Assembly: GCA_946699065.1 (NCBI GenBank)
Contig: CAMPDV010000442.1
Coordinates: 1-64,000, forward strand
Length of the DNA: 64,000 nt
Reading direction: 5' to 3'
From: Loxodes magnus
Taxonomy: Eukaryota; Ciliophora; Karyorelictea; Loxodida; Loxodidae
Shown in pieces: positions 3,507-53,133 of the stretch (positions are counted from its first letter, which is position 1; the number at the start of each line of letters is the position of its first letter). The translations under genes were made by a program, and so were the position numbers. The notes beneath the pieces are model-generated. The model saw only the letters and a list, made by a program, of their open reading frames with translations, had not been told where the DNA came from and made no database searches.

Positions 3507-4520
3507 ATGGAGAAAAAAGAAAAGCAATTTACTAAAAGTGTTTTTTTAAGAAAACTCCTAAGAGCGAGAAACCACATTCTAGGGAAAATATCTCTACTTC
3601 ATTTCAAGTATGAAATTCTGCCCAACTTATGTTCCTAAAAGTTAATAAATAAAATCAGTTATGACCAAAGTAAAGGTATTTCTTTAATATTTTTTAGACT
3701 AAGTCTTCACTGGTCACACTTCACCTGTGTTATCGGTAGCCATATCAAGTGACTTGAATTGAATTATATCAGGTTCTGGATGGCCTAAATATTCGATAAA
3801 GATCTGGAATTTCCAGACAGGTACTCTTTTAAGAACTATAACGGGGCATACTTCAAATGCTTCATCAGTAGTAATATCCTCAGACTCTAGCTATATCGTA
3901 TCAGAATCTGATGACACAATTATAAAGATCTGAGATTTCCACAATGGTGCTCTCATAAGAACTTTAACGGGGCATACTTCATATGTTACCTCGGTAGTAA
4001 TCTCCCCGGACTCTAACTATATTGTATCGGGATCTTATGACAAAACCATAAAGATCTGAAATTTCCACAATGGCGATCTCCAAAGAACTATAGCGGGGCA
4101 TACTGATATAGTTAGATTGGTAGTAATCTCCTATGACTCTAGATATATTATATCGGGATCTTCTGATACAACTGCAAAAATCTGGGATTTCTAGACTGGT
4201 CAGCTTGTGCGAACTCTTATTGGGCATTCAGACTGAGTTAGATCGGTGATAGTGTCTAAGGATAATAGGTATATAGTATCGGGTTCGGATGACAGGATTA
4301 TTAAGATATGGGACTTCTCTTCTGTTTAGTGTATTCGTACTCTTTAAGGTCATGCATATGCTTTATGTAGTATTCAGCTAAGTTTTGATTCAAGTGTTAT
4401 ATTTTCTGGTTCTGGTGACAGAACAATCAAGATTTGAAACTTTGATAAGGGTGAGTGTATATAGACTTTGTAAGGGCATAAGGATCCATTAGAGTAGAGC
4501 GTTTTTACCATCAATTATCC
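3507..4520 (+). pseudogene. WD40 seven-blade protein, copy 1, C-terminus lost
   Basis: Exon 1 (ATG at 3507) encodes a 56-residue basic leader beginning MEKKEKQFTKS. A 22-nt intron (3676-3697) follows, and splicing it restores the frame into D-Q-V-F-T-G-H, the first blade. Six 42-44-residue WD40 repeats (GH...D...IKIW) follow with no frame break, provided TAR=Gln and TGA=Trp. Trp of the IKIW motif is TGG in blades 1, 4 and 5 and TGA in blades 2, 3 and 6. Blade 7 starts (GHKDPLE) but fades near 4505-4520, just before a SINE-like element, so the ring cannot close. WD40 propellers are scaffolds for protein binding; the partner is unknown. Copies at 22714 and 52045 are the relatives. Confidence 0.85.
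3676..3697 (+). other. 22-nt spliceosomal intron in WD40 copy 1
   Basis: Begins GTATTTC and ends TTTTTTAG, all AT except the splice-site G residues and one C. Removing it joins a phase-1 exon end to the first WD40 blade in frame; leaving it in destroys the GH motif frame. The same 22 nt occur in both other copies. Tiny introns of this size are typical of ciliates. Confidence 0.8.
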
Positions 4521-12359: not shown

Positions 12360-13560
12360 AGTAGGATAATCAATAAAATTTACAGAACTAATGAAGATTT
12401 AAAAAGGAATAGCTTTTATATTATTAAGGATTCTATCTCTTTACTTTTGAGGAAACTAAAGAAGTTAAGATAGAAATTTCAAAAGGAATAGCGATAGATT
12501 AAATAGTACGGAAAGTTTTAAGCATCTGGAAATATTTTCATGATTCTTGCTAGTTAGATTCTAAAGGAATGTCATTTAAACATATTATAACTCTGAGGCT
12601 TTTTAGGTCTTTTTACAATATACTATAAGAAATATCAATTTTCCTTAATCAGCAATAGGATCACTTTTTAAGAATAACTGATAAGAAGGATATTAATATA
12701 GAGATTAAGTAGTGAGTCTATCTGAATATTAAAAATAGATATTAATAATTAGGATTATAATATTAGCATTATTACTTTTATGAGATATGAAAGGTAAGAT
12801 ATAAATTTAATTCTAAAAGTAGCTACTTAGAGACTAAAAAGGATGTCACTGAAGGATTTTTATAGAATAATTAATGATTAAAGCAGTTCCTGTAAATTAC
12901 CTATCAGAAATAAAATAAATAGTAATGAATAGAAATAATTATTATATAAAAATTAAGAATCAGAAGCTATTACTTTCTCAAATATCTTTAAGATAGATAT
13001 TATTTAATTGAGAACCCACAATGCATCTGTGAAGAATTTGATCTGTTTGAGCATATTCAAACTGGCGATGTTATATAGAGATGCGAGAATGGATAATAGT
13101 AAAAATTGGATAATGCGATATTAGAAGATTAAAAACTTAGACCAAAACTTTATAAATTAATTTGCAAATACAAATTAGAATATATTGATATACAAATAGG
13201 AATTTTCCAAAGGATTTTGCTTTAAAGGATATTATAATTATTTTAATTGGAAAAATATGAATGATTTGAAAGTTCTGAAATTAAGGATAAAAAAATTAAA
13301 GATCCAAGAAGGATGAAGAGAATGAGGGAGAGAAAGAAAAGCAAGTGGAAGACTAGAAGGAATAATTAGATAATAAAGATGATTTAGCACATGAAGAGGA
13401 TAAAAATGAAAGCATGAAGAAGTGAAAAAATTTAAACAACTTTAAAGCATCTTTAAGTGAAGAAAGCAATTCCAAAAAAGAAAATATATCACAGAACTAT
13501 TTTAATTAAATTAAAATTAAAAAAAGAGAAAGAAAAAATTAAAGTTACAAAAATAGATGA
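12360..13560 (+). mobile_element. LINE ORF2 C-terminal fragment with acidic tail
   Basis: Plus-strand fragment. It includes RIINKIYRTNEDLKRN, then a cysteine segment NPQCICEEFDLFEHIQ (about 13015-13060) equivalent to NPHCICGELDKFQHI in the minus-strand LINE at 30.9 kb. An acidic/basic tail (KDEENEGEKEKQVEDQKEQ... ESMKKW) runs to about 13430. Several frames contribute, so it is decayed. It follows immediately on the tail of the SINE-like element. Confidence 0.6.
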
Positions 13561-15467
13561 GCATTTTTAAATTTAATTTATACTTATTTATATTTAAAAA
13601 AGCAAAAATATTAATTTTATAAATTTCTATTAATCATATAGAAATCCAATTTTTATTTTAGACTTAAAAATGAAACATTCCATATTTAACTAAAAACCAT
13701 GGCATTTAAAAATCCAATATCTAATTTGACTTCAAGTTTTAATGCTAATGATTAGGTTAGATATTAAATTTTACAAACTTTTTATTATATTATATTTCAT
13801 TATTAATTATCATTAAATATAAATTAATATTATCAAGATTTTTATAACTACTTATCATATAATTATATTTTTACCTAATTTTTCTTTTAACTTAGAAGTG
13901 AACACAAAAAATATTTTTAGTGTTTCAAATTTACTATTTCTAGTTTATTTTGTTCATATAAAATAGAAATTAAATCTAATTCTTCATATTTAAATAAAGC
14001 TTATATGAAGACTTTTTCCTCACGACACCTCTTTCTTAATCATAAAATTTTGTCATTTCTGTTATTAAAGAAACTTTTGCAATTTTTAGTGACTTTAACG
14101 AAATCTCAATTCTATTGATAATAGATAATTCTTTTCTATCTTTCATTGATTCAATCTAAAATTTACAAGATATTTCGTATCTTCAGTGAAAAATAAATAT
14201 GTTTTGAACCTACAAACTAAACTACAAAGATACTTTACTCTTAAAATTTTTATAAATACTTTTACATAATTTAAGTCGCTCAAAATTAATTAGTAAGTCA
14301 CTACTTAAATTTATTTTTTTCAATTTTTTAATTTCTAAATTTACATAAAATCAGTAATTACTCTTGACAAATAATTTAATTTTTCTTTCTTGTAATTCAC
14401 CATTTTCTTTTGATGTCCTAGAAGCTAGAATAATTAATTCTGTTCTAAAACTTTTAATTTTTTCAGAAATTGTTTTCCTATTTTCTATTCTGTTATTTTC
14501 TTTTCGTATATTAATTTCTCTAATGCGAATTAGTAAATAATAAAAGTAGACTCTAATATTCTTTCACTTTAATTATGTTCTAACTTAAATTATCTCTTTT
14601 ATATTTTTGACTACTCACTTTTTTAATTTATTGAGATGATATTTTATTTTTTATTAATCATAATTTAAATTTATAAGCTTTTTCCTTCCTCAAATAATAA
14701 ACTTTTTAACTTATAAGTTTAAATTATAGTTATGTATATTAATGAACTAACTGATATAAAAATAGTACATTTTTAAATATTCAAATAAATTTTGAACTTA
14801 AAAAAATAAATTTGAAAATAAGCTAGAAGATTTGATAAAATTTGTACTTAGACAAATAGAAAAAATTTTAAAGGATACTTAATCTTATAAAGGAATTTTA
14901 TTTATAATGTCTTTGTTTTTTCAATTTTTTTGAGTTATTTTTTTGAGTTATTTTAATGAATAATTTTACTATTAGATTATAAATATTTTTTAATTTACTT
15001 AATAAATATAAACATTAAAAATGTTTAATAATAAAAGATATTCCTAAATACAAAATCTTATCACTTACTGATTTCTTATTTTTAATAATTTTCTCTATTT
15101 ATGACTATAGTAGGTAGATATATTTTATATAATAATTAATAATATAATGCATATATATTTATTTTATAAATCAGATAAAAGATCTGAAACATTAACCTTT
15201 ATTTCTATATTCTTTGTTTATTTTTTAATTTAACTACATTATTTATATATGTTTCGTTAACTATTTATTCTAAAATTTTATGATTGCTTTTAAATAAATA
15301 AAATTAAAAAAGTAAAATTTCATTCAACTAACAGATAATCCTTATTTTTTTTAATTTAGATCCTCTTAAAATAAAATAGATAAAAAGATATTTTAATTAA
15401 TGTTATAATCTAAAAATATTAGAAGTAAAAAATGAGTTAAATCTTTAAAGGATTCTAAAAATAAAAA
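13561..15467. other. AT-rich, no clear gene (unit 1)
   Basis: No recognised family. A Lys/Leu/Ile-rich helical reading on the minus strand at about 14340-14560 (EKLIYEKKITEQKIGKQ) could be an eroded coiled coil, but composition alone could give it. A short direct repeat TTTTTTTGAGTTA lies near 14930. Confidence 0.4.
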
Positions 15468-16280
15468 ATGGCAGAAGGTCTCAGGAAGGGTTTTTTTCCA
15501 GCTCCATAGAAAAAGGAAAAAAAAACAGAGACTTCTAATTCTTCTCCTACCACGTCTTCTTTAATAATATAATAATTTTCTTAGGCTCTTTAACCCCCAA
15601 ATTTAGAAAAATAAAGATAATCTTAAATTGAACAAGAAATTAAATCAACAGAAACTGACTAAAGCAAGCGAGACTTTTTACTCCCATAGCCACGATCAAG
15701 CAACTACATGAAAAGTGGTAACTAAAAAATAATGTAGAAATAGAAAAATGATGAATAGCTAATAATAGAATAACTTATGAAATCTATCCGTAACCTATAA
15801 GAAGAAGTTTAAATATTAAAGAAAGAAAACCAAAAATTACTATAGAAAAGTTAAAACAATGAAGAAAGATTAATGAAACAGGAAATCGAAGTGAAACTTT
15901 TGGGAGAAAAAATAATTTAACCTTAAACTTTAGCTGAAAATAAAATGGAACTAGAATGCACAAAACCCTTAGAGATAACTCCTCCCAGAAGGATCGTCAA
16001 GCTGTGCTACCTGTGCAAATCAAAATTCCACACATACAAGAGATGCAAGATATATTTGGATAAACAGAGAAGAAACAGTGAAGAGATTTGGAGAGAACTT
16101 TCAAGAATTTATGTAGACAAGGATAGAAGAATATTTAGAAGGAGGCTTTTTCAAGGGAGTGCCAGAACTCCAAAAAAACTGGGAGTCCCGAACTTTTATT
16201 TTAAACCTCAAGGAACGCACTCTGGAGGTATGTATTGAAGGGGTTTAAAATCCCCGGAGATACGAACACTTTAATTTAGT
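15468..16280 (+). CDS. ORF1-like CCHC protein, unit 1
   Basis: ATG at 15468; MAEGLRKGFFPAPQKKE opens the protein with the signature shared by all ORF1-like genes here. A Gln/Ser/Thr-rich linker, a coiled coil (KSIRNLQEEVQILKKEN) and a CX2CX4HX4C knuckle, CYLCKSKFHTYKRC (about 15999-16040), follow, then SEEIWRELSRIYVD. The region needs TAR=Gln throughout; no internal TGA occurs before the knuckle. A C-terminal block (VPELQKNWESRTFILNL) matches the paralogue at 16563 but lies in a neighbouring frame, so the locus is either decayed or uses recoding. Likely role: RNA-binding ORF1 of a LINE; a gag-like origin cannot be excluded. Confidence 0.65.
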
Positions 16281-16562
16281 ATATTAAATAAATCTTTAAA
16301 GGATTCTTTAGTAATAATATTTATAGATAATCGTTAGTAAAGAGAAAGAAAGTCGCAAATTTTAAGATTCTTTATTAAATTTATGAAGAAAAAATTAATA
16401 TTAAAATTCAGTCCTAAAATGAATTACAATTTAAACATATTTAACTACAAGTTTCTATAAATTTTATATCTTTTTAAAATGCTAAATTTTTATATAAATT
16501 AAAGAACTATTTATAAAATTAATAATAATAATATACTTAATTAAAGTGTTTTTAGCTTTTAG

Positions 16563-17355
16563 GTATTTCAACCTCATTTCCACTGACATTCAGTGATCGC
16601 TCCTGGATACTTAAAATAAAAGTTCGGGTCATCCAGTTTTTTCGGAGTTCTGGAAATCGAATGGAAAATTCTTCTTCTATAAATTCTTCCTTCCATCGTC
16701 ACGTAAATTCTTGCTAGTTCTCTTCAGACTTCTTCGCTGTTTCTCTTCATCTTTTCCTTGTTTATCTTGCAACCCTTGAATCTATGGAATCTTGATTAGC
16801 ACAGGTAACATCTCTTGAGAATCCTTCTAATATTGGTTGGTTCTATTCGTCTATCGTCTATCGTCTTCTACTTCCATTTTTATTTCTTAGATTAGAGGCT
16901 CTATTCTTTTTTGTCCAAGTTGCTATACTTCGATTTCTTATTTGACTAATCTTTCTTCAGTATTTTAACTTCTTTCTAGTAATTTTTTGTTTTCTTATCT
17001 TAATATTTTACTTCTTCTTACAGAATACGTACAGATTTCAAAAGACTTTCAATTAGTAATTATTCTTCATTTGTCTGTTTTTGCGTCGTTTTTGATTCTC
17101 TTATTTCCTATAGTTACTTGGTCTCGGTTTAGGAAGAAAGTAAATATTTGATTATTAGTTTTATTCTGTTTATGTTTATTTAAGTTCTTATTTTATTTAA
17201 GGTTTTCTTAAATTTTCAACTATAGGAGGTTATTAAGATTAAGAAGATTATTATTTTATTAAAGAAGACGTGATGGATGAAGAATTAGAAGTCTCTGGTT
17301 TTTGCTCCTTTATCTATGGAGCTTGCAAAAAACCGTTCTTGAGACCTTCCGCCAT
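16563..17355 (-). pseudogene. Degenerate ORF1-like paralogue, tail-to-tail with its neighbour
   Basis: Minus strand, ATG at 17355. MAEGLKNGFLQAPQIKEQK and TSNSSSITSSLIK align with the N-terminus of 15468-16280, and the knuckle (CQSRFHRFKGC, first Cys region altered), EVWRELARIYV and FPELRKNWMTRTFILS align further on. Trp in EVWRE is TGA here and TGG in the neighbour. Coding signal is spread over more than one frame, so it is not intact. The two genes form an imperfect inverted repeat with about 0.3 kb between arms. Confidence 0.6.
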
Positions 17356-17359
17356 TTTT

Positions 17360-17930
17360 TGATTTTATTTATAAAATTAAATAAATATTTTGTTATATAT
17401 TAAAGAATTTAAAAACTTCTAAAATGTGTAAGACAATTACAAATAAACCTTTCTTTAAAAAAAGTTTAGCATTTAGAAAATTATAAATAAATATACAATT
17501 ACTAAAACATTTAAACTAAAAATTACATAAATATTCTTATTTTTAGCAAATTTTGGCTTTAAATTCTAAAATTAAAAGGCTATCTTAATTTAATAAATAG
17601 AGCAATAAAGATATCTAAAATTTAATAAATTCTAATAGAAAAGCATTTAAATTAAAAGAGATAATATTTATATGATATTAATGAATCTATTAAGTAAAAA
17701 AGAATTTCTAAAGTTTTATTATTATTAAATAATTAATTCTTATGCTACAGATTTATTTGATTTAGTTTAAACTAGCTAAAATGTAATAAACTGAAATATA
17801 ATATAAAATTAGTTGTTTAAGTTTAATAAATAAAATAGATTTAAAATACTTTGATTAATATATAGTTAAATATTCTAAAATGGATTCCTTGATTATGAAA
17901 GTTTTAAATTAGGCTTTTTAATAAATTGAA
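17360..17930. other. AT-rich, nothing recognised
   Basis: Non-coding, AT-rich, slightly diverged between units 1 and 2. Confidence 0.4.
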
Positions 17931-19337: not shown

Positions 19338-20203
19338 ATGGTAGAAGGGTTCAAGAAAGGTTTTTATACCACCTCCTAAAAAGGGGAGAGAAAGTAAGAA
19401 CCCTCATCTTTAACTTTCACATCTTCTTCCTAGAAATAATCTTCTTCTCAAAACCTTCAAGAATAATAGACTCAACTAGGAACTTCCAGATCAACTTAAA
19501 AGATGGGACAAAAGCGCCAAAAGGCTACCCCGATGACATCAACTGAAGAGGAAGGACCTAGAAAGGTGCTGGAGATGCAAGAAGCAGCAGCCGTGCGAGA
19601 GTTTGCGATGCCACAGTTCCAGGAAGAACAGGCATAAATTTTAGTCGCATTCTCTGACCTGAAGGAGGAAGTAAAGAGGCTACGATTAGAGAATAGAGCT
19701 CTAAAAATCAAGTTACTGAGCTCAAGGAATGGAAAGAAAGCTTCTGGGAAGTCTACGATTGAGAGCAAAACACTTTCTTCAGGGAAATGGGATTGCCACA
19801 GCAGAGAACAACTGTGCTTGAAGAGAACAGCAAGTAGCAACAGTAGTAGGAATTTAAAGTTAGGACAATTCAAGATACAATGGACATAGAAGGAGCTACT
19901 AATTTACCGAGGAGTCCAGACAAGAAATGAATTAGGAATAAACCAAGATGCTTTGTATGCAAACAAACTGGGCATAAATATAGACAATGTTAGAAATTGA
20001 AATTAATTAAATAATAGTACTGGAATAGAAAATAATAAGAAAAATAATAGTACTAATATTAGGATAAGATTAGACGAGAATTCTGTAACTACTTTTATCT
20101 GTCAGGAGGTCAAATCTACAAACCGAAGTGGTACACAATCCAAGGCGACTGAAGAAAGAGTTCTGAAGGAAGCTGGTTCCAGCCAGGTTATCAAACTGGT
20201 CCA
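19338..20203 (+). CDS. ORF1-like CCHC protein, unit 1-specific insert
   Basis: ATG at 19338; MVEGFKKGFYTTSQKGER carries the shared N-terminal signature. A Ser/Gln-rich linker, a Lys/Glu-rich segment (LKEEVKRLRLENRALK, a leucine-spaced coiled coil) and a canonical knuckle CFVCKQTGHKYRQC (about 19957-20000) follow, then a Gln-rich stretch. It is markedly richer in G/C than its surroundings. Trp is written TGA in YDWEQ and KKWIRN. There is at least one apparent break in the coiled-coil region. Only unit 1 has it; unit 2 carries other DNA at this point. Probable retroelement ORF1. Confidence 0.65.
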
Positions 20204-21540
20204 ATATGAAAATATTTTAATTTAATTTCTTGATAAGATCTTTTAAATTTAAATAAGTGCTTAATCAAATCCTATTTATTAAACCACTTTAAATGTTTTT
20301 ATGTTTATGAATATTTAGCATCTTAAATTAAAAAATACTATATTGTATATTAAACCAAACATTTATTAAAGCAATCCTTAAATTATCAATTATCATTTAG
20401 TTGTCTAATCATTTAGAATCAAACAAAAATACCTCATTTTTAAGGTCATTTATGAAATTGTGTATTATTCGCTTTATCATCTTAGAAAAAGCTTTGCTTT
20501 TTATTATGCTATATATGTTTCTTTTTATATTGTACGAAATATTTCCCATATAGATATAATTATAATAGTTATTAAATTACACTTTGTATATTATTTTAAT
20601 TAATACAAAAAATTAAAGCTTTTAACCTTTTTTGATATAATGAAAACTATATTGATTTCTTAATTATTTACACTTTCATTTTGGTAATTCCTATTATTTA
20701 ATATTAGAATATCATTTTATTCTTATTTTAGATGCAAATATAAGATAATTTACAAGAAACTTAAGATTTTTATCATTTTCCATATATTCAAATTATTTAT
20801 ATACTTTACTACCAAATCTTTCTTAATCATAAATAGTCAATCCATTTTTTAAAAAACCTTTCAACTTTAATCAAATAGCTTCATTAGAAATTACAACATT
20901 AATAAATAAAATCTATTTTCTATATACATAGTAGATATATTCAACTTCCTAATCATCAGAAACCTAAACCTATTCCTTTTAATATTACCAAATTAGAACT
21001 AATTTTTAAGAGAAAAAATACTTAATATAGCCATTTTTTCTTAAAATCTTATTTTTCTCTTCTAAATTAACATCTTTTCGCAAACTAAAAACAGATAGTT
21101 AGTCTAAGCTCTTTTCTTTTACTCATCTTAAATTTTTAATATTTTTCTAATTATTATAATAAAGCAGAATATTTTTAAACTTGATTAATAAATTTTTATT
21201 TCTATATTTTATATAGTTAGGTTAGATATATTATTTAGATCCTTGTTTAATTACTTTTTTTAGATTCTTTGTAAATTGGCCTAAAATTTATTATTAAAGA
21301 TGTATTGTACCTCATTTTTTCTATTTGATTGATCATATTTTTATAAAGAGCTTTTTTAGTTCTTTTAGATTAGTTATTTTAAAAATTCGCATTATCTATT
21401 AAAAAGTTAGTTTTAAGCCCTCTTATAGAAAAAAATTTTTACTGATTTTGTTTCTTCCTAAAATTGTAATTTATTTTTTTGAATTTACTTCTTAAAAGTC
21501 ATTTAAAAAACTTTTCAAATTTTTTAAAATTCTATCTCTT
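20204..21540. other. AT-rich, no gene recognised (unit 1)
   Basis: Shared with 49265-50590; the first 0.85 kb is virtually identical and the rest progressively less so. No motif or coding pattern seen. Confidence 0.4.
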
Positions 21541-21544
21541 TAAG

Positions 21545-22270
21545 AAAAGGATTTATCCATCCCGAAAATCTTTTGTTGCGAATAACTCAGAGCGAAAAAA
21601 GGATAATATTTTCACGATTTCATGGTTTATTTAATTATATCTCCTTTTTTCTTGAGATACTTTTTATTTAAGTAAATTCTTATAACATTAAAAATTTTTA
21701 AAGCGAATTTTTTCATTTACTCGAAAAGAAGTTCAAATCAAAAATTTTATTTTTTCCAAATAATAAACAATAAATTATTTTATAATTTAAAAAATAATTT
21801 ACCTTATCAAAAATATATTTTTAAATAAAAAAAAAATGTTTGTTAAAAAATTTAAAATCAAAAAATTTTCCTAAAAACAAAAACATTTTTTTTATTTTTA
21901 CAAAATACCATTTCAACAAAAAAGATTTCCAAATTCTATTTCGAATATAAAGTTTTTTTGTTCCTATTTTTTTCTCAAAAATCTTTTATATTTGAAATTT
22001 TTCTTGAAAATTTATACAATTTTAAAATTTTTTATTCCGAAATAATTAAATTTATTCCGTGCCGAAAATATTTGGTAGTGTAAAACGCTGAGTAAAAAAA
22101 CAAATTTTTTATTTTCATGAAATTTAAGCTCTAAAATTGAAAGATAAATAAAAAATTTACCATCAGAAAAAAAATTCTAATTAGAAACGTAACATGTTGA
22201 ACATAAAAATTAAAATTTAATAATAATAATAAATAATAATAATTAATAATTAATAATAATAATAATAAAA
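21545..22270. repeat. Degenerate repeat block plus AAT microsatellite (unit 1)
   Basis: Two diverged copies of a block reading TTTATTCCGTCCCGAAAATC, then a TTTGGTAGTGTAAAACGCTG-like segment and AGCGAAAAAA (near 21550-21605 and 22045-22110). A/T homopolymer runs lie between them, and an AAT-type microsatellite follows at about 22205-22270. Unit 2 has at least four copies of parts of this block (50590-51540), so copy number differs between units. Confidence 0.6.
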
Positions 22271-22713
22271 AACAAAATTTAATTTAAAATAAAATACTTA
22301 ATTAAATTTTTTAATTAATAATCAAAATTATAAACTAACTTTTACCTTATAAATAATAACTACTTCACAAAAAAAATGATAATTTATACTCAACTTGAAA
22401 TTTTTACAAAATCTAAAAATTAATCTATAAAATTTTATAGCATAAAATTAAACTTAAATTTATTATACGTCTTCATTTAACAAAATTATTCATTCAATAT
22501 TTTTAAATATTACCCACTTTAAATAACAGACCTCACTAATTTCAACCTTTTTTTAAACCAAGAATATTTAAGAATATAACAAATTTTAAATAAATATAAA
22601 GCAAACACTTCATAAAATTACAAACATTATTAACATTAAACATTCATTTAAATACATTACCAATATCTTATATCTTTAATCGTAAAATTTAATTAAGTCA
22701 AATGGCAAGTTAT

Positions 22714-23800
22714 TCAACTCGAAACTCTCCATTTTCTAATTGTCCTGTCCTCAGCTCCCGATACCAACCATCTATTATCAACACTCAATGCTATAGAATA
22801 TATTAATCCTGTATGCCCTTACAAAGTCTATATACACTCACCCTTATCAAAGTTCCAAATCTTGATTGTTGAGTCATAAGAACCAGAAAATATTACACTT
22901 GAATCAACACTTAACTGAATACTTGATACACCACTTTTATGACCTTGAAGAGTACGAATACACTAGCCAGAAGAGAAGTCCCATATCTTAATAGTACTGT
23001 CATAAGAACCTGATATGATATAACTATTATCCTTAGACACTTTTACCGATAAAACTAAGTCTGAATACCCAGTAAGAGTTCGCACAAGCTGACCAGTCTA
23101 GAAATCCCAAATCTTTATAGTTTTATCCTAAGATCCCGATATAATATATCTAGAGTCATAGGAGATTACTACCGATAAAACTCAGTGAGTATGTCCAGAC
23201 AAAGTTCTTTGGAGATCACCATTGTGGAAATTTCAGATCTTTATGGAGTAGTCAGAAGATCCTGATACTATATATCTAGAGTCAGGGGAGATTACTACCG
23301 AGTTAATAGGAGAAGTATGTCCCGTTAAAGTTCTTATGAGAGCACCAGTCTATAAGTTTCAGATCTTTATGGTTTTGTCATAAGATCCTGATACGATATA
23401 GCTAGAGTCTGGGGATATTACTAACGATAAAATAGTAGAAGTATGTCTTGTTATAGTTCTTTGGAGAACACCTGTCTGGAAATTTCAGATCTTTATAGAA
23501 TATTCGGGATATCACGAACCTGATACAATTCAATTCAGGTCACTTGATATGGCTACCGACCAAACAGCTGAAGTGTGACCAGTAAGGATTTAGTCTAAAA
23601 AATATTAAAGAAATACCTTTACTTTGGTCATAACTGATCTTGTTTATTAGCTTTTAGTAGCATAAATTAGGCAGAATTTCATACTTAAAATGAAGTAGAG
23701 ATATTTTCCCTAGGATGTGGCTTCTCGCTCTTAAGAGTTTTCTTAAAAAAATACTTTTAGTAAATTGCTTTTCTTTTTTCTCCATTTATTTTTTCTCCAT
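22714..23800 (-). CDS. WD40 seven-blade protein, copy 2, intact
   Basis: Minus strand. Two in-frame ATGs (23800 and 23785) reflect a five-residue MEKKQ duplication. A basic leader of about 55-60 residues (LRKLLRARSHILGKISLLHF) precedes a 22-nt intron (23595-23616), then seven WD40 repeats of mostly 42 residues, ending IRKWRVSS and TGA at 22714-22716. From 23785 to 22714, less the intron, is exactly 350 codons, with no frame break under TAR=Gln, TGA=Trp (354 aa from the upstream ATG). Seven blades make a closed propeller. Trp of IKIW is TGA in blades 1-3 and TGG in blades 4-6. Terminal TGA as stop is inferred from domain end. Function unknown; a ligand- or partner-binding scaffold is likely. 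Confidence 0.9.
23595..23616 (-). other. 22-nt intron in WD40 copy 2
   Basis: Identical in length and sequence to the intron in copy 1 (GTATTTC...TTTTTTAG) and in the same phase and position, immediately before blade 1. Confidence 0.8.
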
Positions 23801-24560
23801 TTTAATTTTTATAACTTACTTCTATAAATATTTAAATAAAATAACTCAATAAATTTTACTGACTTAATTTCAATACAATTAAACAATAAAATTATTTATT
23901 AAACATATTTATAAATATCTTATTTCTTAAACATTAATTTTTCTATTTTTGTCTTAAAACAAGACAAGATATTAAACTAATAGTGTACAAGCTTTTACAA
24001 TTTTAATTATTTATATCTTTTTACTTTTAAATGAAAGGATAAATTATTATATCAAAAGTTTATAACGAAGAATTATATCCTTATTATAATAACTTTAATA
24101 TAAATTTATTAGTTACTACTTATTTGTGTTTTAAATCAAAGACTCTTAAGAAAACCTTATTTTGTTGTAGACCTTTTAAATGATAAATAAAATATTACAA
24201 TTCTTTTAAAAACTATTGCTATTAATTATTACTTTTCACTTACATTTAATCCAAAAATTATTTCTTTAAGCTTTTTACTAATTAAAAAAAGTAAATAAAA
24301 TAAGTTTCTTATTAATTAGTTTGAATAGATATTAAAAAACATCAAATTATTTAAAACAAAGTATTTTTATATTTATAAGATAGATTCTTTTAATTGCTCA
24401 TTTTCTTACTACTATTTTAAAACTTTTTATTTATAAAGGTCTCTCTTAAAATAATAAAACAATATAATTTATTATTTATAATGCTGTATTCTAAGTAGGT
24501 TATATAAATGTAATAAATATAAGTAGTAGAAAGTAAATATTTAATCTAACTAGAAATGGT
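23801..24560 (-). promoter_or_regulatory. Conserved upstream region of WD40 copy 2
   Basis: Shared by all three WD40 genes, and about 99% identical to the region upstream of copy 3. It is the only candidate location for their promoter. No TATA-like element stands out, because the whole stretch is A/T-rich. Confidence 0.35.
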
Positions 24561-25109
24561 GCTTTATAAATTTTAGATTAATAAGATACTATTTTAATCC
24601 TTAAAAATATTATGCTTTTTATAAATTTAAATATATATTGATAAATGTATTTGTTAAATTTTAGATTTATAATATACGAATTTATCATCTTAAAGTTTTA
24701 TAATTGCTAGTTAGAAATTCTTAATTTTATCTTCTATTATAAAGTAAATTTAATTTTTTATATTTGATGAATAAATATTTTATAGTTATAGCTTAGCAGA
24801 TTTTAAAATATTTTATATCTAACTATTTTTACTTTTGTTACCTAATTATTTTTATGCTATTTAATATAATTTTTTAAATATTCTGTTTTTATATAAAAAA
24901 CTAAATATTTATTTATTTAATGAGATATATCATTTTACTTATTTTCATAATTTTTATCATATTTTACGAATAATTTGTGTGAATAATCATAAAGAATTTT
25001 GTGAAATATCCTTTCAAAATGGTATTGGTTGACAAAGCTTCTAAAGAAGAGAAATAAAAATATTTCTGATATAAAATTTTGTTTTATTTTAATTTTTTTA
25101 AATAATAAT
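24561..25109. other. AT-rich, nothing recognised
   Basis: No coding pattern or motif. Virtually identical in units 1 and 2. Confidence 0.4.
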
Positions 25110-25600
25110 AATGTTTAATTTTAATTTTTCCATTTTGAGATATTTCAACCTTGTCTGGAAGACACCAATTCATACTCTCTGTTGTTAAATAATAGCTTTT
25201 GGCATCCCCAATTTTAGCGAGATTGGGAACTCGGAATAGGATTTCCTTCATCTCTTTTCCTGTTCTTGTCTTATCGCATCTTTCTTGATTTTATAAATTT
25301 CTTCACTTGAACTGCAATACATGCGGTACTATCTTGCTTCTTCTTTCTTCATTTTTTCTTCAACTCAATAGTTCATTTTTTCTGCTAGAATTTCTTACAT
25401 TTCCGATATAAATGTCACAAGCTTCCACAACAAAATTATTATTTTCTAATCTTTATTTACCTCTATTTTCTTTAAGGTTTTCTGATAATTTCTTCTTCAA
25501 TCAACATTGGATCACTTTTATGCTCTCTTATCTTTTTTGATGTTTTATAAAAAATTTATATTTAATTTGATTTCTTAAAAATTTAGCCTTATAAAGCCAA
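25110..25600 (-). pseudogene. Eroded ORF1-like gene, unit 1
   Basis: Minus strand. KYKFFIKHQKRQES near 25550 resembles the shared ORF1 N-terminal signature. EMQEILAEKMNYWVEEKMKK is a coiled coil, and a knuckle-like YRMYCSSSEE has lost part of its Cys/His set. KEILFRVPNLAKIGDAKSYY and CLPDKVEISQNGKIKIK align with the C-terminal block of the 15.5-17.4 kb ORF1 pair. Purine-first codons are strong in these pieces. They lie in different frames, so the locus is not intact. Confidence 0.5.
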
Positions 25601-26050
25601 GCTTCATATTAATTATATAGCATCAAAACCCCTTGTATTATACCATTGATGTAATATATTAATTTCTTATTATTTGGACAATAAGCATTTAAATTAAATG
25701 ACTAAGATTAAACTAGTCTAATGCTACATTCCTAGAGTCTCTTTATTATTTCTACTTGATTCATTTAAAGAACTATTTCTAGCTTATTAAAGAGAAAAAT
25801 AATTATTTAGCAGTCAAAATGGAAGTTAAACCAAATAGATGAAGATTAGATTATAAAAGTTTAATGCTATAATTTCTTGGAAACCTAAAGAACTTATCAG
25901 ATACTTAAAAATACAAATTCCAAGTTTCTGGTGTGTTGGAAGTAAATTAGTTTAGCTATAAGAAGTTTTATTCTCATACTTACTTGTATTTAAGCTTAAT
26001 CAACTCTATCGATATTAAGAAAGCTTGTCCTTGATACGACTCTGAGATTA

Positions 26051-26665
26051 ATGAAGATATTAAGTCAAGAAAATTCCATCCTCGATAATTTCGCGCATAA
26101 ATAAAACTTGACTCAACACCTGGAAAGTATCGAAAATAGTATTAAAGTCTACAAAGGAGCTATCATATCTATTTTTATACAACAATGTTTCGTTTTTCTA
26201 TTAATAGAAATGGGAAGGGCTTGAAGAAATAAAGAATATTATTTTCAAAAGTAGATAGAAGGCGTTACTCACAGATTAAATTCTGATAAAAGATTTTCAA
26301 CCATAATTTATGTAGATGGTATCTTAGTCACACGAATAGCTCATCCAATGGTAACAGCAATGACTCGTCGAGCATTGAGTCGAGATATTTTGGCAGATTC
26401 AGAGATTATTAGATAAAAAATAACTCGCCAAGACAGTCTAAGCCCATTTCAAGTTCCCTTTTGACAGATGAATAATCAAACACTTGGCGAATTTTGTATC
26501 ATAACGTTAGGAAGAACCGATATTGAAGAGATAAAAGGAAATGCCGCTATAAACGCTTGGTTGCAACAAATTAATTATCTTTGTGGTATTTTTTCTGATA
26601 CCTCTGGTTTAAAACTCGTTAAAGATAAAGGATTGGAAATCACAGTTTCCAGTTTATACTGATAC
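26051..26665 (+). CDS. Unidentified coding segment, forward member of convergent pair, unit 1
   Basis: 204 codons from an in-frame ATG to TGA at 26663, with TAR=Gln and two internal TGA read as Trp (GRAWRNK, PFWQMNN). About 65% of codons start with a purine, clearly higher than the antisense frames. Composition is protein-like and the DNA is more G/C-rich than its surroundings. Readable stretches: SIENSIKVYKGAIISIF, KRFSTIIYVDGILVTR, ALSRDILADSEIIRQ, DIEEIKGNAAINAWLQQ. The same frame stays protein-like upstream to about 25982 (LSILRKLVLDTTLRLMK), so the start may be earlier. I recognise no family. Foreign origin is possible but unproven. Confidence 0.5.
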
Positions 26666-26689
26666 TGAGGTTTTGAATGAAGCCAGCTT

Positions 26690-27450
26690 TTCCCTTTTTG
26701 ATCTGTGAGCGGTTTCTGTCCACTTTGAACTTGCCAATAGAAAACTTGTGTTATCTTTTAACAGATGTGCCATCCCAGACAAACTCCCCACATGGTGGTT
26801 TCTCCCACCTAGTTACTTTGCTAGAAAGTTACTACATGAAAGGATAAGTAAAGCAACATTAAGAGTAGTGATATTTCAAGATCGCGGTCTTCCACTTATT
26901 CTACGCACCGGATTAGAGTAAAACTCAACAGGGTCTCCTTCAACCTGATTATGCCAAATCCATTTCTTAGGATGAAGTTTCGCTGGTAAAAGATAGAGAC
27001 AATAGGAATCTCGTTAATCCATTCATATACGTCACAATAATATGACGAGACATTTGACTACTTAAGAGAGAAATAATTACTTGCGCCATTTACTCGAACT
27101 TTTATGAACCTCCTCATATTGGTATTCAAAGCAAAGGGTAGAAAATGCATTGTATTTGCATATAATCCTCAAATTGTTTCGCTTTAATTAAACAGTCAAA
27201 TTCTTCTTGTCGTTCCAGATCTGAGATGGCCATTCGCCTCAGGGTCGACCACTTTCGGCCATAGCGATAAAACTCCCATTTCCATAAAATGAGTCATTCA
27301 TTCCTTTTAAAGTAGATTCCTAACTTGCCTGTGATTCAATCTTTCTCCCAAAATTGCAAACCTAATTTATCGACTACTCTTACCTTTATTTTCCTATTGA
27401 CTAGAGGTAGCCAAACTTGTAATTACTTAATTAAATAAGAAATTCCATAG
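26690..27450 (-). CDS. Unidentified coding segment, reverse member of convergent pair, unit 1
   Basis: Minus-strand reading, about 250 codons in one frame under TAR=Gln, TGA=Trp: VRVVDKLGLQFWEKDW, LGIYFKRNEWLILWKWEFY, MAISDLERQEEFDCLIKAKQ, and toward the C-terminus PPCGEFVWDGTSVKRQHKF and KVDRNRSQIKKGKAGFIQ. Trp and aromatic residues are frequent. A middle part (about 26880-27120) is ambiguous between two frames. Differences from unit 2 are mostly amino-acid-changing (for example MAIS to MTTS), so constraint looks relaxed. No family recognised. It converges on the forward segment with about 25 nt between them. Confidence 0.45.
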
Positions 27451-27459
27451 TACAATGGA

Positions 27460-29490
27460 ATATTTTAATCTTTAATCCTCAACAAATTTTAAAGAGATTT
27501 ATACATCGATTAAGATTTTTCATTATTACAATCTTTCTAATTATATTAAAACATCAGAAAAAGATAAGAGTGTAACTAACCTGGTTTGGAGAATAGTCTA
27601 AATGTAAATCAATTTAAGAAAAGATATTAACTACATAATAATGCAAAAACAAGAGGCTATTTATTGATGAACTTGACCCTTTAGTGTTAGAAAATAACTT
27701 TTAGTAAATATTATATAAATTAAAAAAAGTATTTTTAACTTTTTAGATATTATGTTGTATACTATTTCGTTAAATTTAACTTTCCAGACAAAATATTTGT
27801 CAAAAAAAAAGAATGATATTCCCTAAAAAGGATAAACTTATAAATATATAATAAAAGCTTTAAATTTTTTTAATATTATTAGATATATGTAATTCTTTCC
27901 TCATGACAGTAGTTCATGCTTTAGCTAGTTAATAAAAAACTTGAGACATTCATAAATACAAAAGGGATTATTAGCTGAGCAAGGATTATCCCCATGATTC
28001 TTGCGTAAGCCGTGAGATAATATCCACATTTTATACATGCTTTATTTTCTTTTCTAAAGCGCTTATTCAATTTTGTTAGGTAATTTATTGAATTTTTAAG
28101 TATCTTGAAATTATTGAGTTTATATGATTGCAGTTGGTATTTTAATAATAATCTCAGTACTATAATATACTTATAAGGCATTTAATTAAGATCGATAAGA
28201 TAAATTCATTAAAAGCTTACCCATTTGTTTAGAATATTTTCCTAGTTATGAATATAATACTTAAATTGACTCTATTCATTGCGGTGGTAGGTTAACTAAG
28301 TACATTAGAAAGATTTCTGGTCCTACTTTAAAGGATATTAGTTTCTTGCTATAATAAGGTTTATAAACTAGTAGAAATTAAATCAAAAACAAGTATAATG
28401 AAATGGTATTTAAGCTTTGGAATATCTTACTAGGAGTATTAGCAGATAACTTAAAAGAAGCGCCTAGTTAGAAGCAAAGGGTAGTAAATAGTCAATTTTT
28501 CTTCTTTGAAATCTTAGAAAAATATTCTAAGCATATTCCTAAACTTAACTGCCTCTTTCTATTTTTCTTCCATAGAAATCTATAAACCATTTGAGCTAAT
28601 AAATAAAAAAGTATCTAAACTATCTGAAATATTAGTTTAGTAGCTAATATAGAAGATACCAAAGATTCACTAGAATCTATATACTAAATTTATACTTAAA
28701 TACCTAACTTTAAAGCTTAATCTTAATCAAACTATATTACTACTTCATATACCTAAAGAAGCTTATTAATACTAATAACTCTTATTCCTTTTATTTAAAA
28801 CTAAACCATTCTCTATTATAAAAAAGTACTTAGTACTATTGTCTAGCAATACACTACTAAATATAGTTTAGACTTACTCCTTCCATACTTTTAGTCTTCC
28901 TTTCTATTTGAAAAAGTAAAACGAAACTTTTAAGTTAAAGTAACAGAACTAAGTATGCTTATATAGTCAGGTTTTAGAACATTAATGTAAATATTCAACA
29001 TTATCATTTGAATAATGGAAGTAACAATCCAGTAAACTTTCATAAAACTATAGTAAACTGCTTCTTATATTAGAAGCAATGCTATATGCTAAGCAGTTAA
29101 GTGAGTATATTTAGATAAATAGGTAAAAAATAAGTTCTGTATCAGTTACCAGAAACTTAAAAGACTCTTTTACAAAGCTTTAAATCATGTTATCATTCTA
29201 ATTCCTTCTAACTAACTTAACCTTATAAAGCATTCATTTATATTCTCAGTAAAAGATCTTTGCCATTTGATACACTTAATACTTTCTATGTCACACTCTG
29301 AATTTTTTTTAAATATAGAGTAGCACTTCAAACAAATTAAATAAGAACTAACATAAAGCAAACTTAGCTAAATTAATTATCAATCCAAATAAAAGATGCT
29401 TAAGTAGTAAGAGTTAAAAGTTAAATAAAAATCAATTAAATTAGTATATCAAACGCAGAACATAAAACTACAACTTTCGAAAAGACCTTT
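27460..29490. other. No gene recognised (unit 1)
   Basis: AT-rich; identity to unit 2 falls slightly at 27.9-28.5 kb. A stop-poor minus reading near 28.0 kb contains CIKCG but no complete knuckle (see rejected). Nothing else visible. Confidence 0.4.
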
Positions 29491-29499
29491 AAGAAAGAC

Positions 29500-30010
29500 A
29501 TTATTCTGTCAAGAATCCCAATTGCAATTGTTGAGAATTTAATTAGTTTGAGCATATTTTGGATTGTGGTTGCTATATAGACATGCGGGAATGGATAATA
29601 GTAAAGATTGGTTAATGTGTATTAGAAGATTAATAGCATATGATCAAAACTATATCAATTAATTTCCAAAAGGCAAATTAGAATATATTGATTTATAATA
29701 AAAAATTTTAATAGGATGCTGATTAAAAGGAGATTAGTATTATTATTTGAACTGGAAAAAGATGAGGATAAGAAAATTCTACAACTAAGGAAAAATAAGT
29801 GAAAGACCAAGAAAAAGATGAAGAGGATGAAGAAGAACAAGAAGAGCAAAAAGAAGAATAGAAGGAATAAACTGATGACGAAGATAAACTAGCTGAAAAA
29901 GAGGATAAAGACGAAAGTGTGAAGAAGTGAAAAACTTTACATAACATTATAATATCTTTAAATGAAGGAAACAATTCCAAAAATGAAAAAATGTCACAAG
30001 ACTCTTTTAG
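29500..30010 (+). mobile_element. LINE ORF2 3' fragment with acidic tail, unit 1
   Basis: Plus strand: NPNCNCWEFNQFEHIL (C-terminal cysteine segment), KGKLEYIDLQ, then a Lys/Glu/Asp-rich tail ending DESVKKW near 29930. Homologous to 12.9-13.5 kb and, inverted, to the LINE starting at 30.4 kb. 5'-truncated and decayed. Confidence 0.6.
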
Positions 30011-30399
30011 TTAAATTTAACTAAAAATCAAAAAAATATTTTAAAAATAAAATTTTTATTAAAAGAATAAGTTTTAACAGTAATAATATTAACTACGTTC
30101 TTAAGCACATAATTAAATATATCTTGTATGAACTTTAAGTATGTGAAATTTTGAATAAAATAAGTTCATTAGAGTAAACAAATCGTTCTGATTTTGAAAA
30201 ATATTTTACTTTAAGTCTAACTAAGTAATATTCCTAGTAATAAAAACACCTTGATCAATAAATAGCAGCAACTTTTTTTATAAGAGTTTAGTTTTCAAGT
30301 TTATAAAATGATTCTATTAAAAAATATAAAAATAGACTATACTTAAGAAAAGAAATTAAACTTAAACTAAACTAAAATAGTCTTGTGACATCCTTAATT

Positions 30400-31935
30400 A
30401 TTAGAATTATTTCTTCCTTCAATTAAAGATGATATGGAATTATTAATAAATTCTTCATCTCCTGCTTTCATCTTCATCTTCTACTTCAGCTTGATCATAT
30501 TAGTTATCAATTTGTTCTTTCTTTTCTTCCACTTACTCTTTTAGCTCTTTAGCTCTTTAGCTCTTCTTGTTCTTCATTTTTTTCCTCATTTTCTTCACTA
30601 TTTTCTTGCTCTTTTACTTCCTCTTTCTTAGATTCAAGATTTTCGAATCATTCATCTTTTTCCAGTTCGAATAATTCCAATCTCCTTTTGATTAGAATTC
30701 TGTGGAAAATTTCTATTTGTAAATCTATATATTTTATCTTGTTTTTTTGGGAATTAGTTGATATAATTTTAATCAAGGTTATTAATTTTCTTATATCGTC
30801 TTATTCTATCTTTGCTATTAACCATTCTCTTCTATGTAACAATTAAAATCCATAATATGTTGGAATTTGTCCAATTCTCCACAGATGCAATGAGGATTCT
30901 CGATAAGGTAATGTTTGTCTTGAAGATCTTTACGAAAGTTGTCGCTTTATGTTCTGAGTTTGTATATGCTGATTATTTCTTCTATATTATTTATTTATTT
31001 TCGGATGGGTAATTTCTAGGAATTATCGTTAATTACAGAATTATTCTATAAAAATCTTTGCAGTTGGCATACTGTTAAGTCTTTACGGAGTTACTTTATA
31101 GAATTTATGTTGAATCTAGTTCTTTACATATTTAGTAAAGGTAATTAAGCTACTATTATATTCCTAATTATTAATATCAATTTCGTAGTATTCAGATAGT
31201 CTTGTTAATTAATCTCTATATTAATATCATTCCTATCAATTATTCATAAAGAGAATTCCTATTGTTGATTATGGAAGGTTAATACTTTCTTATCGTATTT
31301 AAAAAAATCTAAAAAACCTCAAAGCTATAATATGTTTAAATGACATTCAGTTAAGATCTATATAACAAAACTCATTAAAGTGTTTTCAGGGGCTTAGAAG
31401 ACTTTCCTTGCTATTAATCTCATATTTTTATCAATTTCATTTGTAGTTCCAATAACTCCATTTTAGATTGCTCAAGGTATTAATTTTCCTCCATATTCTA
31501 CTTTAGGAAGCGTGAAAATTCACATTCAGAACAAAGTCTTAAAATGTCAAGTTGTCACATTTTTATTTCTTGATAATGTATATACTGCTTTCTTCATAGC
31601 GGACAGATAATTAATTGAAACCGATTTGCAGTGATTAATTAGATCCTTTTTTGATGAAGAATTACTCCTAAATATGTTACTTATTACTTCTAAATAATTG
31701 GGTTATCTTTTATTTTTAAGTTTAACTTCTCTTCTTTTTGATTCCTTTTTAAGAATTAAATAGCTTCGCATTTTGAAGTATTGATATTCAATTAAGCCTA
31801 TTCGAATACTTTTTTTGTTTCATTTATTAAAATCTGCATCGATTTTTCAGAATCTATCAATTAACAAAAATTTATTTGGCAGAAATAGTGAGCTAATAAA
31901 ATGTGTTATTGATACTTAAATTTTAAATATTTATA
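30400..31935 (-). mobile_element. LINE ORF2: late RT blocks to C-terminus, unit 1/2 junction
   Basis: Minus strand, about 500 codons. Blocks in order: MQILINETKKVFEQ, LNINTSKCEAIQFL, VTYLGVILHQK (palm blocks 6-7, about 31650-31860), a connection region, then the zinc-binding segment NPHCICGELDKFQHI (about 30855-30900) and LELFELEKDEWFENLESKK followed by a Glu-rich tail. Trp in DEWFE is TGA. The catalytic YxDD position is degenerate in this copy. It spans the boundary between unit 1 and unit 2 and shows that the array junction lies inside an old LINE. Type beyond LINE is not assignable by eye. Confidence 0.75.
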
Positions 31936-31952
31936 AATAAATAAATTGGGTT

Positions 31953-31995
31953 ATAGAGCATGTAACACTCTCAATGATGCGCAGCTCTTTAAAAA
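31953..31995 (-). repeat. Isolated tRNA-like end of SINE-like family, unit 2
   Basis: Same as 5938-5985; adjacent to the LINE fragment via a TTTATTTATT tract. Confidence 0.55.
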
Positions 31996-33959
31996 TTAAT
32001 TTAATTTAAATAAAAATTTCTCTTTGGAAGTTTCTTCTGCCAAAATTCTTGCTCAGTTGGTAGCTCTTAAAGTACTTCTTGGTACTTGAGATAAGTTAAT
32101 CTCAGTTAGAGGATTGTTCCTGCCTATTTAAAATATTGAATCATTAATAAAATAATGTGAATATCTTTAACTAAAAGCACAATAAATAGAATTAGATGAA
32201 ATTAAGAATTTTAAGAATACGAATGATAACTTTCCCACTTTGTTACTTCTATTACTTTAGAAATAGAATCTAAAATTTTAAAATTTAGCAATAAATCTAT
32301 TTATTTTAATTTTGTAACTTCAATATTTAAAAAATAAAAGTTTAGAAACATGTTATAACTATGATTTAAAATTTAAATCATTTATATACAAAAATGAGTT
32401 AAGTTTACAAAGGTTAAAGAAATTCTCTTTAGTTTAATTAATTAAATTATTTATTTATCAAGCAAGAAAAAATTTAAATCTTATAATTTTTGATATTTTT
32501 CATCGTAATTCGAATAATCAATAGAATTTAAAATATTTTACTTATAATTTAAGAAATATTGGATACTGTAAGGAAGATTAAAGAAAAATGATTGTATGAT
32601 TTAATAAATTAGCATTTATAAAGGTTAAGCTGTTATTCAAAATAAAAAGCAGTACTTACAAAATAAAAAATCTATATTTCTTTACTTTTTATTATAAAGT
32701 TATGCAGTTATATGACTAGGTTATACTGCTCTCCAGAAGGAAGACTTTATAAGAAAAGGTTTATGGTGGAGAATAATTACTATTAGATATAGTCAAAGCT
32801 CAAAAAGAAGAACCAAATAAATTTTTGGCCAAAATGAGATTGGAGTAAGATTACTGTAGTCAAGAAAGGTTAAATTTGCCCAAGCCGATACTCAATGAAG
32901 AAGTGAGCTCTGAAAAAGACTCTAATGATCCTATGATCGAATGAAATAATCTTATCATATACTTATAAACTTACCAGGGATAAGCTAATAATGGAAATAT
33001 CAATTTAATAATTATCTCTTATATATTATAACAATTTAAGCTTTTGCTTTCTTTAATTTCTTTTTTACCTATAAAAATCAAAAAAAATAAAGCTAATAAA
33101 TTTAATTATCACATAATGTTTAAATTTATATTTTTAAGTTAATTAGAAATTCTTTTTCGAATTAAAAATAGAAAAATTAAAGTATGATGAAAAAGTTTAC
33201 TAAAGCAATCTAAATAATATCTAAATATAAAAAACAAAGTGTTTAGTTATCATTTATTTTAAGATTCATATTGAGCAAAATACATAAATATAGGAATCAA
33301 TCTTAATGTAGAATGTTTTATTTTAAATTAAAAAAAACTTAGTATAAATTTAGTTTAGGATAATTTATGATAAACAGTAACTAATAATTTTTATAAAACT
33401 CATCATATTATTAAATATTTTTCTTTTTTAATTTAAGAAAAATAAAAGAACTAAAAACAAATATTTTAGATGATTAAAAATATTGAGAAATTGAAGCAAT
33501 TTTTTCATTACTTAGTTACAATTTTGCCTGGAGATAATTTATTATATTCTGCAAATTAAAACTAACGAAAAAATGTTTCATTTTTAAATGTAGAATTATA
33601 AAAAGAAATTCGAAAAGTTTGATGATAATTTTTATTCAGACTTATTGAAAATGAGATTTAAACATTATTTAATGAATTTCTTTTAAGTTATGTCGATTCT
33701 ATAAAATCCTTCTACTTTGTAAAATTTTTTAAGCATGAACTCTTTTAATATAAAATTGATAATAAAGTCTAAATTAATTTTTATCTTAAATTTAAATATT
33801 TTTGGTAATAATTAATTTGAGTTCTTTAATTTTATACTTAGAACTTATTATTCTTCAATTTTTACTACGATAAAGTTTATAAATTTCTGATTCTTTTTTG
33901 AGTTGAAATTATCTAAATTTTTTGATTTAAATTGAAATTTAAAAACTATTTATTTATAT

Positions 33960-52044: not shown

Positions 52045-53133
52045 TCAACTCGAAATCCTCCACTTTCTTATCGTCCTGTCACTAGCTCCCGATACCAACC
52101 ATCTATTTTCAACACTCGATGCTATAGAAAGTATTTCATATTAGTGCCCTTATAAAGTCTATATACACTCACCCTTATCAGAGTTCCAGATCTTGATAGT
52201 TCTGTCATAAGAACAAGAAAATATTACACTTGAATCAAAACTTAACTGAATACTTCGTACAGCACCTGTATGACCTTAAAGAGTACGAATACACTAACCA
52301 GAAGAGAACTCCCATATCTTAATTGTCTCGTCACCAGAACCTGATAATGATATAACTATTATCCTTAGACACTGACACCGATCAAACTTAAGTCTGAATA
52401 CCCAGTAAGAGTTCGTTCAAGTTGATCTGTCTAGAAATCCCAAATCTTTATAGTGTTATCCCAAGATCCCGATATAATATATCTAGAGTCATAGGAGATT
52501 ACTATCGATATGACTACATTAGTATGTCCAGTTATAGTTCTTTAGAGAGTTCCATTGTGGAAATTTCAGATCTTTATGGAGTAGTCAGAAGATCCCGATA
52601 CAATATATCTAGAGTCATAGGCGATTACTACCGATCAAACTGTAGAAGTATGTCCCGTTATAGTTCTTAGGAGAGCACCAGTCTATAAATTCCAGATCTT
52701 TATGGTTTTATCAGCAGATCCTGATACTATATAGCTAGAGTCTGGGGATATTACTACCGAGTTAACATAATCAGTATGTCCTGTTATAGTTCTTTGAAGA
52801 GTACCTGTCTGGAAGTTCCAGATCTTTATAGAATATTCAGGATATCACGAACCTGATACAATTCAATTCAGGTCACTTGATATGGCTACCGAGTAAACAG
52901 ATGAAGTGTGACCAGTAAGGACTTAGTCTAAAAAATATTAAAGAAATACCTTTACTTTAGTCATAACTGATCTTGTTTATTAGCTTTTAGTAGCATAAGT
53001 TAGGCAGAATTTCATACTTAAAATGAAGTAGAGATATTTTCCCTAGAATGTGGCTTCTCGCTCTTAAGAGTTTTCTTAAAAAAATACTTTTAGTAAATTG
53101 CTTTTCTTTTTTCTCCATTTATTTTTTCTCCAT
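52045..53133 (-). pseudogene. WD40 seven-blade protein, copy 3, frame broken in blade 5
   Basis: Minus strand, ATGs at 53133 and 53118, leader and 22-nt intron (52928-52949) as in copy 2, seven recognisable blades, ending IRKWRISS and TGA at 52045-52047. Two extra single bases relative to copy 2 in blade 5 (about 52345-52395) leave the length two bases out of frame. The protein is therefore truncated or altered after blade 4 unless corrected by processing. Trp of IKIW is TGG in blades 1, 2, 4, 5 and 6 and TGA in blade 3. Blade-face residues differ from copies 1 and 2 while the framework is the same. Confidence 0.85.
52928..52949 (-). other. 22-nt intron in WD40 copy 3
   Basis: Same sequence, length and phase as in the other copies. 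Confidence 0.8.

Follow-up and report, generated by a model that had tools for sequence, protein, structure and literature searches.

In the window (the whole 64,000-nucleotide stretch of DNA analysed) we found three copies (c1, c2 and c3) of a two-exon WD40 gene, the frames of which are open with TAA/TAG read as Gln and TGA as Trp. Judging from the sequences and the predicted structure, we consider it probable (about 0.78) that they represent a WD40 family with a diversifying binding face in a karyorelict-like ciliate, convergent with the fungal NWD receptors. Each gene would encode a conserved N-terminal segment, predicted as a helix, and then a single propeller of seven blades. The propeller scaffold appears to be under purifying selection, with four top-face residues per blade, i.e. 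28 per propeller, apparently under strong positive diversifying selection. Given this constraint on the scaffold and the diversification of the face, the paralogues would share one architecture and offer different putative binding surfaces.

Gene structure, genetic code and predicted fold

Copy c2 is the sole intact one (ATG to TGA), as the frame of c3 is disrupted in blade 5 and c1 breaks off in blade 7 (Table 1). Its product of 347 residues consists of a 54-residue N-terminus and one seven-bladed propeller; the stretch that a sequence-only reading had assigned to a WD40 family (22714-23594) coincides exactly with c2 exon 2 on the reverse strand, including the TGA stop (22716-22714). Exon 1, the short intron and the divergence island around exon 2 had escaped that reading. 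Exon 1 of c2 is basic in composition (12 K/R vs 4 D/E). The 28-nt intron has the same sequence and position in c1, c2 and c3, and an alternative 22-nt form of it in c2 (23616-23595) leaves the frame unchanged. A Pfam search with exon 1 and with eight further frames from the window gave no match at the cut-off (best for exon 1: a zinc-knuckle with 15.9 bits vs 27), and no known domain was found 3' of c2 at E-values up to 1. With the c2 protein as tblastn query (table 6, E up to 1e-3) we found no copies in the window beyond c1, c2 and c3. The homology of c1 is lost just within blade 7, near position 4480, and blade 5 of c3 carries two one-base frameshifts; an intron within c3 blade 5 as source of the frame change was rejected by eye, as part of the blade would be removed. 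Short inverted-repeat, MITE-like sequences are located at 2757-3310, 4620-4932, 11764-12358 and 37636-38230; one such element lies in the upstream region of c1 and is absent there in c2 and c3, and another directly follows the c1 truncation.

Table 1. Positions of the WD40 gene copies and of the region of c2/c3 divergence in the window
Feature	Position	Strand	Remarks
c1	3507..4480	+	exon 1 3507-3669, intron 3670-3697, blades 1-6
c2 exon 1	23623..23785	-	ATG at 23785; 163 nt; 54 residues; conserved among the copies
c2 intron	23595..23622	-	28 nt, GT-AG; splicing inferred from sequence
c2 exon 2	22717..23594	-	seven WD40 blades, intact; Pfam WD40 (PF00400) E 8.1e-81, 7 stretches
c2 stop TGA	22714..22716	-	six in-frame TGA codons further upstream taken as Trp
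c3	52045..53118	-	ATG 53118, intron 52955-52928, seven blades
c2/c3 divergence island	22000..23600		exon 2 together with ~0.7 kb of its 3' flank

The WD40 copies read through only under TAA/TAG = Gln and TGA = Trp. In c2, TAA/TAG account for 8 of the 16 Gln codons and TGA for 6 of the 12 internal Trp codons, all six within the first 192 codons. This usage corresponds to a karyorelict-type code (NCBI table 27: TAR = Gln; TGA = Trp and stop), as seen in one gene family and with the end of blade 7 taken as the guide to the stop. The G/C content is 23% for the whole window, 34.9% for the c2 CDS and 18% for the 100 bases after its stop. For Loxodes, passages of PMC11441545 describe UGA as both Trp and the sole stop, with coding UGA depleted ahead of the stop, introns of 19.3 nt on average (93% of them ≤25 nt) and a G/C content of 33.5% in CDS and 18.6% in 3'-UTRs. 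Copy c2 resembles these descriptions in its code, its TGA distribution, its short intron and its CDS and 3' G/C content; the 22-nt variant of the intron fits the Loxodes lengths better than the 28-nt one. A Condylostoma-type code may be an alternative for the window; the heterotrich introns of 15–16 nt given in the same passages argue against it.

Pfam, AlphaFold and PDB matches agree on a WD40 β-propeller with seven repeats closing one propeller. For exon 2, AlphaFold (input alignment: the three window sequences) predicted a propeller with 28 strands at a mean pLDDT of 96.7 and a pTM of 0.92. The best Foldseek matches in the PDB were the designed seven-blade propeller 7BIG, PkwA and 2YMU (TM (query) 0.92–0.95), with WDR5 next (TM 0.93, 37% identity in the fold alignment) and LIS1 and ODA16 also among the matches. 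Exon 1 was predicted as a single long helix (residues 2–55, pLDDT 87.9), a weak prediction because of its pTM of 0.51 and the input of three nearly identical sequences.

Variable face positions and selection

For comparison between blades we used a register of 42 positions that starts at GH, which we take to be consistent with the fungal repeat. The frameshifted stretch of c3 blade 5 (DLSL) was excluded from the counts. The residue differs in 17 of 17 comparisons at position 7, in 16/17 at position 5, in 16/19 at position 23 and in 12/19 at position 25; these are exactly the four most amino-acid-variable of the 42 positions, followed by positions 4 (9/19) and 6 (7/17). In the NWD proteins of Podospora, codons 7, 9, 25 and 27 of each repeat are positively selected (Paoletti et al. 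2007, Chevanne et al. 2010; PMC1805685, PMC2873952); according to the passages of these papers that cover them, the two pairs surround codons 8 and 26, both under purifying selection, and belong to the top surface of the propeller, within the d-to-a loop and the b-to-c turn. We equate the fungal codons with positions 5, 7, 23 and 25 here because of the spacing (2-16-2), the placement in loop and turn and the conserved Asp. Four preset positions would coincide with the top four in one of 111,930 random choices, a figure uncorrected for the window having been flagged beforehand for visible variability. When the blade register is matched to the strands of the predicted model, positions 5 and 7 fall where the d-a loop ends and strand a starts, and positions 23 and 25 in the b-c turn.

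The face and Asp-turn residues listed in the sequence-only reading are all present in c1, c2 and c3, with DLSL in the frameshifted blade 5 of c3. Its picture needs correction in that the variable residues form two pairs, 5 and 7 as well as 23 and 25. Of the residues enclosed by them, position 6 remains hydrophobic despite the differing comparisons (omega 0.78, indistinguishable from 1), and the Asp at position 24 hardly changes (2/19 comparisons differ, omega 0.21).

We fitted a codon model of our own (three tips, F3x4 frequencies) to the three sequences, one of them frameshifted and one truncated. The maximum-likelihood estimates of omega are 6.87 for the face (28 codon sites), 0.38 for the other blade sites (260) and 0.11 for exon 1 and the junction (59 sites); fixing the face at 1 costs 59.5 in 2ΔlnL. 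Among ten single positions examined, with branch lengths fitted without the face, omega reaches 10.4 at position 5, 16.0 at 7, 5.1 at 23, 3.3 at 25 and 3.3 at 4, and is below 1 at positions 3, 6, 24, 26 and 32. With each codon counted once, a difference is present in 61 of 72 comparisons of face codons, and every one of the 61 alters the residue; silent-only differences are found in 0 of 72. In neutral simulations (n = 5000) the number of residue differences averaged 27.0, with a maximum of 48, and none reached 61; with branches lengthened 1.5-fold or twofold, 61 residue differences were likewise reached in 0 of 5000 runs, and with doubled branches 61 codon differences were reached in 18 of 5000. 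Pairwise, dN of the face is 0.97, 1.04 and 1.06, compared with 0.25, 0.28 and 0.18 for the silent divergence of the other blade codons, and the lower 95% bootstrap bounds of pN(face)/pS(rest) range from 1.69 to 2.23 across the three pairs. The result holds in every pair, including c1–c2, which leaves out the frameshifted copy. Many of the altered face codons differ in more than one base; since such changes allow for short conversion tracts or multi-base mutations, omega may be inflated. Thus the proposal of a diversifying family made from the sequence alone, which was to be judged by dN/dS at the variable positions and by the uniformity of divergence, is supported by the three-copy codon model and by pairwise dN: among three copies, dN/dS at the fungal positions clearly exceeds 1 in every pair, and change is not uniform (6.9 for the face vs 0.38 for the rest of the blades).

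A second neutral yardstick is the noncoding 3' flank, which differs by 12% between c2 and c3; between the same two copies 19 of 26 scored face codons differ. Neutral drift of a face that is merely free of structural constraint, next to a conserved framework, would match the between-blade variation of face positions seen also in a repetitive WD40 contig (L001, see below), but face change lies severalfold above silent change in the pairs and above the flanking noncoding divergence in c2–c3, so that we regard drift as very improbable. Dead copies, i.e. pseudogenes or repeat debris in a tandem segmental array and of no present function, are likewise an unlikely explanation: c3 is frameshifted, c1 is truncated and partial LSU rRNA copies and inverted-repeat elements are found in the same array, but c2 is intact from ATG to TGA, and the omega values of exon 1 and of the framework indicate constraint for most of the history of the genes.

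Comparison with known WD40 systems and candidate ligands

With HET-E, HET-D and HET-R of Podospora anserina the family shares selection at the same two codon pairs, the second of which flanks a conserved Asp, and their location on the top face. Of the features of NWD proteins, we found positive selection at two top-face codon pairs per repeat (in three sequences), but not a NACHT upstream, concerted evolution or variation in repeat number; this comparison covers three copies, of which c2 and c3 have seven blades and c1 breaks off in blade 7, with one probable patch exchange. Neither a NACHT nor any other domain at its cut-off was detected in exon 1, in 2.3 kb upstream of c2 or in 3.5 kb upstream of c1 (three coding-strand frames, continuous frames); the upstream scan gave one weak match below the cut-off (Phage_tail_terminator_7, E 0.012). 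Unlike the fungal NWD/HNWD proteins, the c2 family has no NACHT or HET domain that we could find. Fungal NWD/HNWD proteins are described in part of PMC12222747 as having a variable number of 80–100% identical repeats, whereas c2 has one propeller of seven place-fixed blades that are 38–69% identical among themselves, below the 85% threshold for high internal conservation quoted from PMC4986451. Position 6 is not clearly constrained here, in contrast to the purifying selection at fungal codon 8, and positions 3 and 32, with omega below 1, differ from two of the seven high-ratio sites of the fungal proteins listed in the passages of PMC12222747 (with the offset inferred). Of the likeness to HET-E drawn in the sequence-only reading, the selected positions stand; we found neither NACHT nor shuffling of repeats, nor a high identity among the repeats of one protein. 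As NACHT is lacking in the regions scanned and blade identity stays under 85%, we did not file the c2 family as NWD. By analogy, the pattern of selection suggests, as far as it can tell, that the variable face works like the NWD face.

Internal similarity is shared with repetitive WD40 proteins (2YMU and cyanobacterial relatives), 2YMU being the best PDB match by sequence and the third by fold. In contrast to the repetitive WD40 class as outlined in part of PMC5587647 (Hu et al. 2017; cut-offs 0.4 and 0.7), c2 is only moderately repetitive and is encoded by a two-exon gene in a reassigned code. Searching GTDB with two peptide patterns we matched 142 stretches, and 11 loci encode relatives, 10 of them cyanobacterial; with a best identity of 46% they were not accepted as orthologues. 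In viral contigs 4 stretches match a pattern and one, the repetitive WD40 contig L001, encodes a relative that was not counted as a member of the family. This viral-collection contig (L001:1-1680) has highly repetitive WD40 blades, the most variable positions of which are 23, 36, 5, 7 and 25 (9 of 10 GH-anchored stretches, one having been removed by the motif filter). Variability between blades at face positions is thus not special, and the comparison of the same blade between paralogues is the evidence that counts.

WDR5-type propellers share with the family a single seven-bladed propeller. The top-face peptide pocket of WDR5 presumably involves positions equivalent to 5, 7, 23 and 25. The WDR5 face is conserved among animals, whereas the face described here is hypervariable between copies. 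Variable binding residues on a constant scaffold are also reported for the sensors of bacterial diversity-generating retroelements (PMC10907252). Among the matches listed from open-licence literature, we found no report of diversifying WD40 families in ciliates.

Since the propeller is predicted with confidence and the variable positions map to its d-a loop region and b-c turn, we read the face as a binding face; its role in recognition is putative. It would bind a variable protein or peptide ligand, the simplest case being a non-self, parasite or mating-related one, with the constant N-terminus as a putative shared part for coupling or oligomerisation. That the ligand is foreign, parasitic or conspecific non-self, rather than an ordinary client, appears possible at somewhat less than even odds. 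Selection may also be real and reflect the ordinary specialisation of adaptor or scaffold paralogues for different clients, which differs from our preferred reading in the ligand alone. WD40 propellers mostly serve as scaffolds; this counts for adaptors, as do the fold matches, which include WDR5, LIS1 and ODA16, and the lack of any effector domain or NACHT found in exon 1 and upstream of c1 and c2. However, c2 and c3 differ in most of their face codons in spite of an identical 1 kb upstream, and recent adaptors would be expected to have retained more of the face; we consider the adaptor explanation doubtful. If the diversifying family that we favour is large and expressed, it would constitute a recognition-type repertoire in a ciliate, with the same four WD40 codons diversified convergently in fungi and a ciliate. 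A protein of this small size in which no nucleotide-binding switch was found would, if this holds true, help to separate the role of a variable face from that of the NLR machinery.

Mode of diversification and surrounding DNA

The blades cluster by place: framework DNA of the same place is 87–96% identical across copies, compared with at most 86% between places, blades 2 and 3 being the most alike of the blades from different places. These values and a silent divergence of 0.18–0.28 contradict the sequence-only claim that the framework is nearly invariant in DNA. The scored residue pairs at positions 5 and 7 are distinct in 19 of 19 cases, and those at 23 and 25 comprise 16 distinct pairs among 20. 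Because of the clustering by place and the distinct residue pairs, whole-blade shuffling as in Podospora is not a visible process here, and we rejected it as driver of diversification. Blade 3 of c1 and blade 2 of c2 share a YDKT turn down to the codons, for which a single exchange of a patch between the two blades is a likely explanation, judging from this match. Recombination could more generally mimic selection by micro-conversion between blades or with unseen paralogues, and both the shared YDKT turn and the c2/c3 island, which resembles a replaced segment, would agree with it. Blades, however, group by place across copies, and the residue pairs are largely or entirely distinct. Conversion alone would in addition bring along silent changes of the framework, and none of the 72 face-codon comparisons shows a silent difference only; such mimicry is therefore improbable.

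Copies c2 and c3 are located at corresponding positions of segmental duplicates that are spaced about 29.3 kb from each other. Their mismatches amount to 12.0% in exon 2 and to 12.2%, with 318 gap columns in addition, in the 3' flank (22000-22713), in contrast to exon 1 with 3/163 and to the intron and the 1 kb upstream of c2, both with 0. Elsewhere they reach 0.63% on the 5' side (the other 9.9 kb) and 1.24% on the distant part of the 3' side. As the divergence of the island contrasts with the near-identical 5' side, exon 2 and its 3' flank look as if they had a different history from the constant 5' end. Most simply, the pattern of mismatches would reflect gene conversion from another paralogue, or sparing of the island during homogenisation of its surroundings; an assembly fault may also lie behind it. 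Divergence is as high in the noncoding flank as in exon 2, and the island alone is thus no sign of selection; the clustering of change inside exon 2 is such a sign. One tentative and rather unlikely extension of the diversifying-face reading would be a recognition repertoire of stand-alone propellers without NLR machinery, which arrived at the four fungal codons by convergence and would gain new binding exons through recombination, with promoter and exon 1 kept constant in front of them. With identical upstream DNA and intron next to a diverged binding exon, the layout of c2 and c3 is one in which long reads can test directly how the family diversifies.

The window contains a tandem segmental duplication (5484-34651 vs 31485-64000) with steps of ~26 and 29.3 kb, the main blocks of which are 94–99% identical. 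Each duplicated unit carries one 3' part of a eukaryotic LSU rRNA on the reverse strand (26072-27397 and 55405-56730; model positions 1890–3399 of 3401; 459.5 and 457 bits). There were no other Rfam matches in the window at gathering scores, nor in 19500-34500 up to E 0.01, so that these pieces are probably a fragment or pseudogene; a tRNA scan of the window gave no hits. An old large palindrome of ~1.9 kb is present at 15456-17367 and 41329-43240, with a 71% match to its own reverse complement, and a dispersed repeat (12496-13521, 29465-31420 and 58806-60761) occurs in inverted and direct copies of 70–76% identity.
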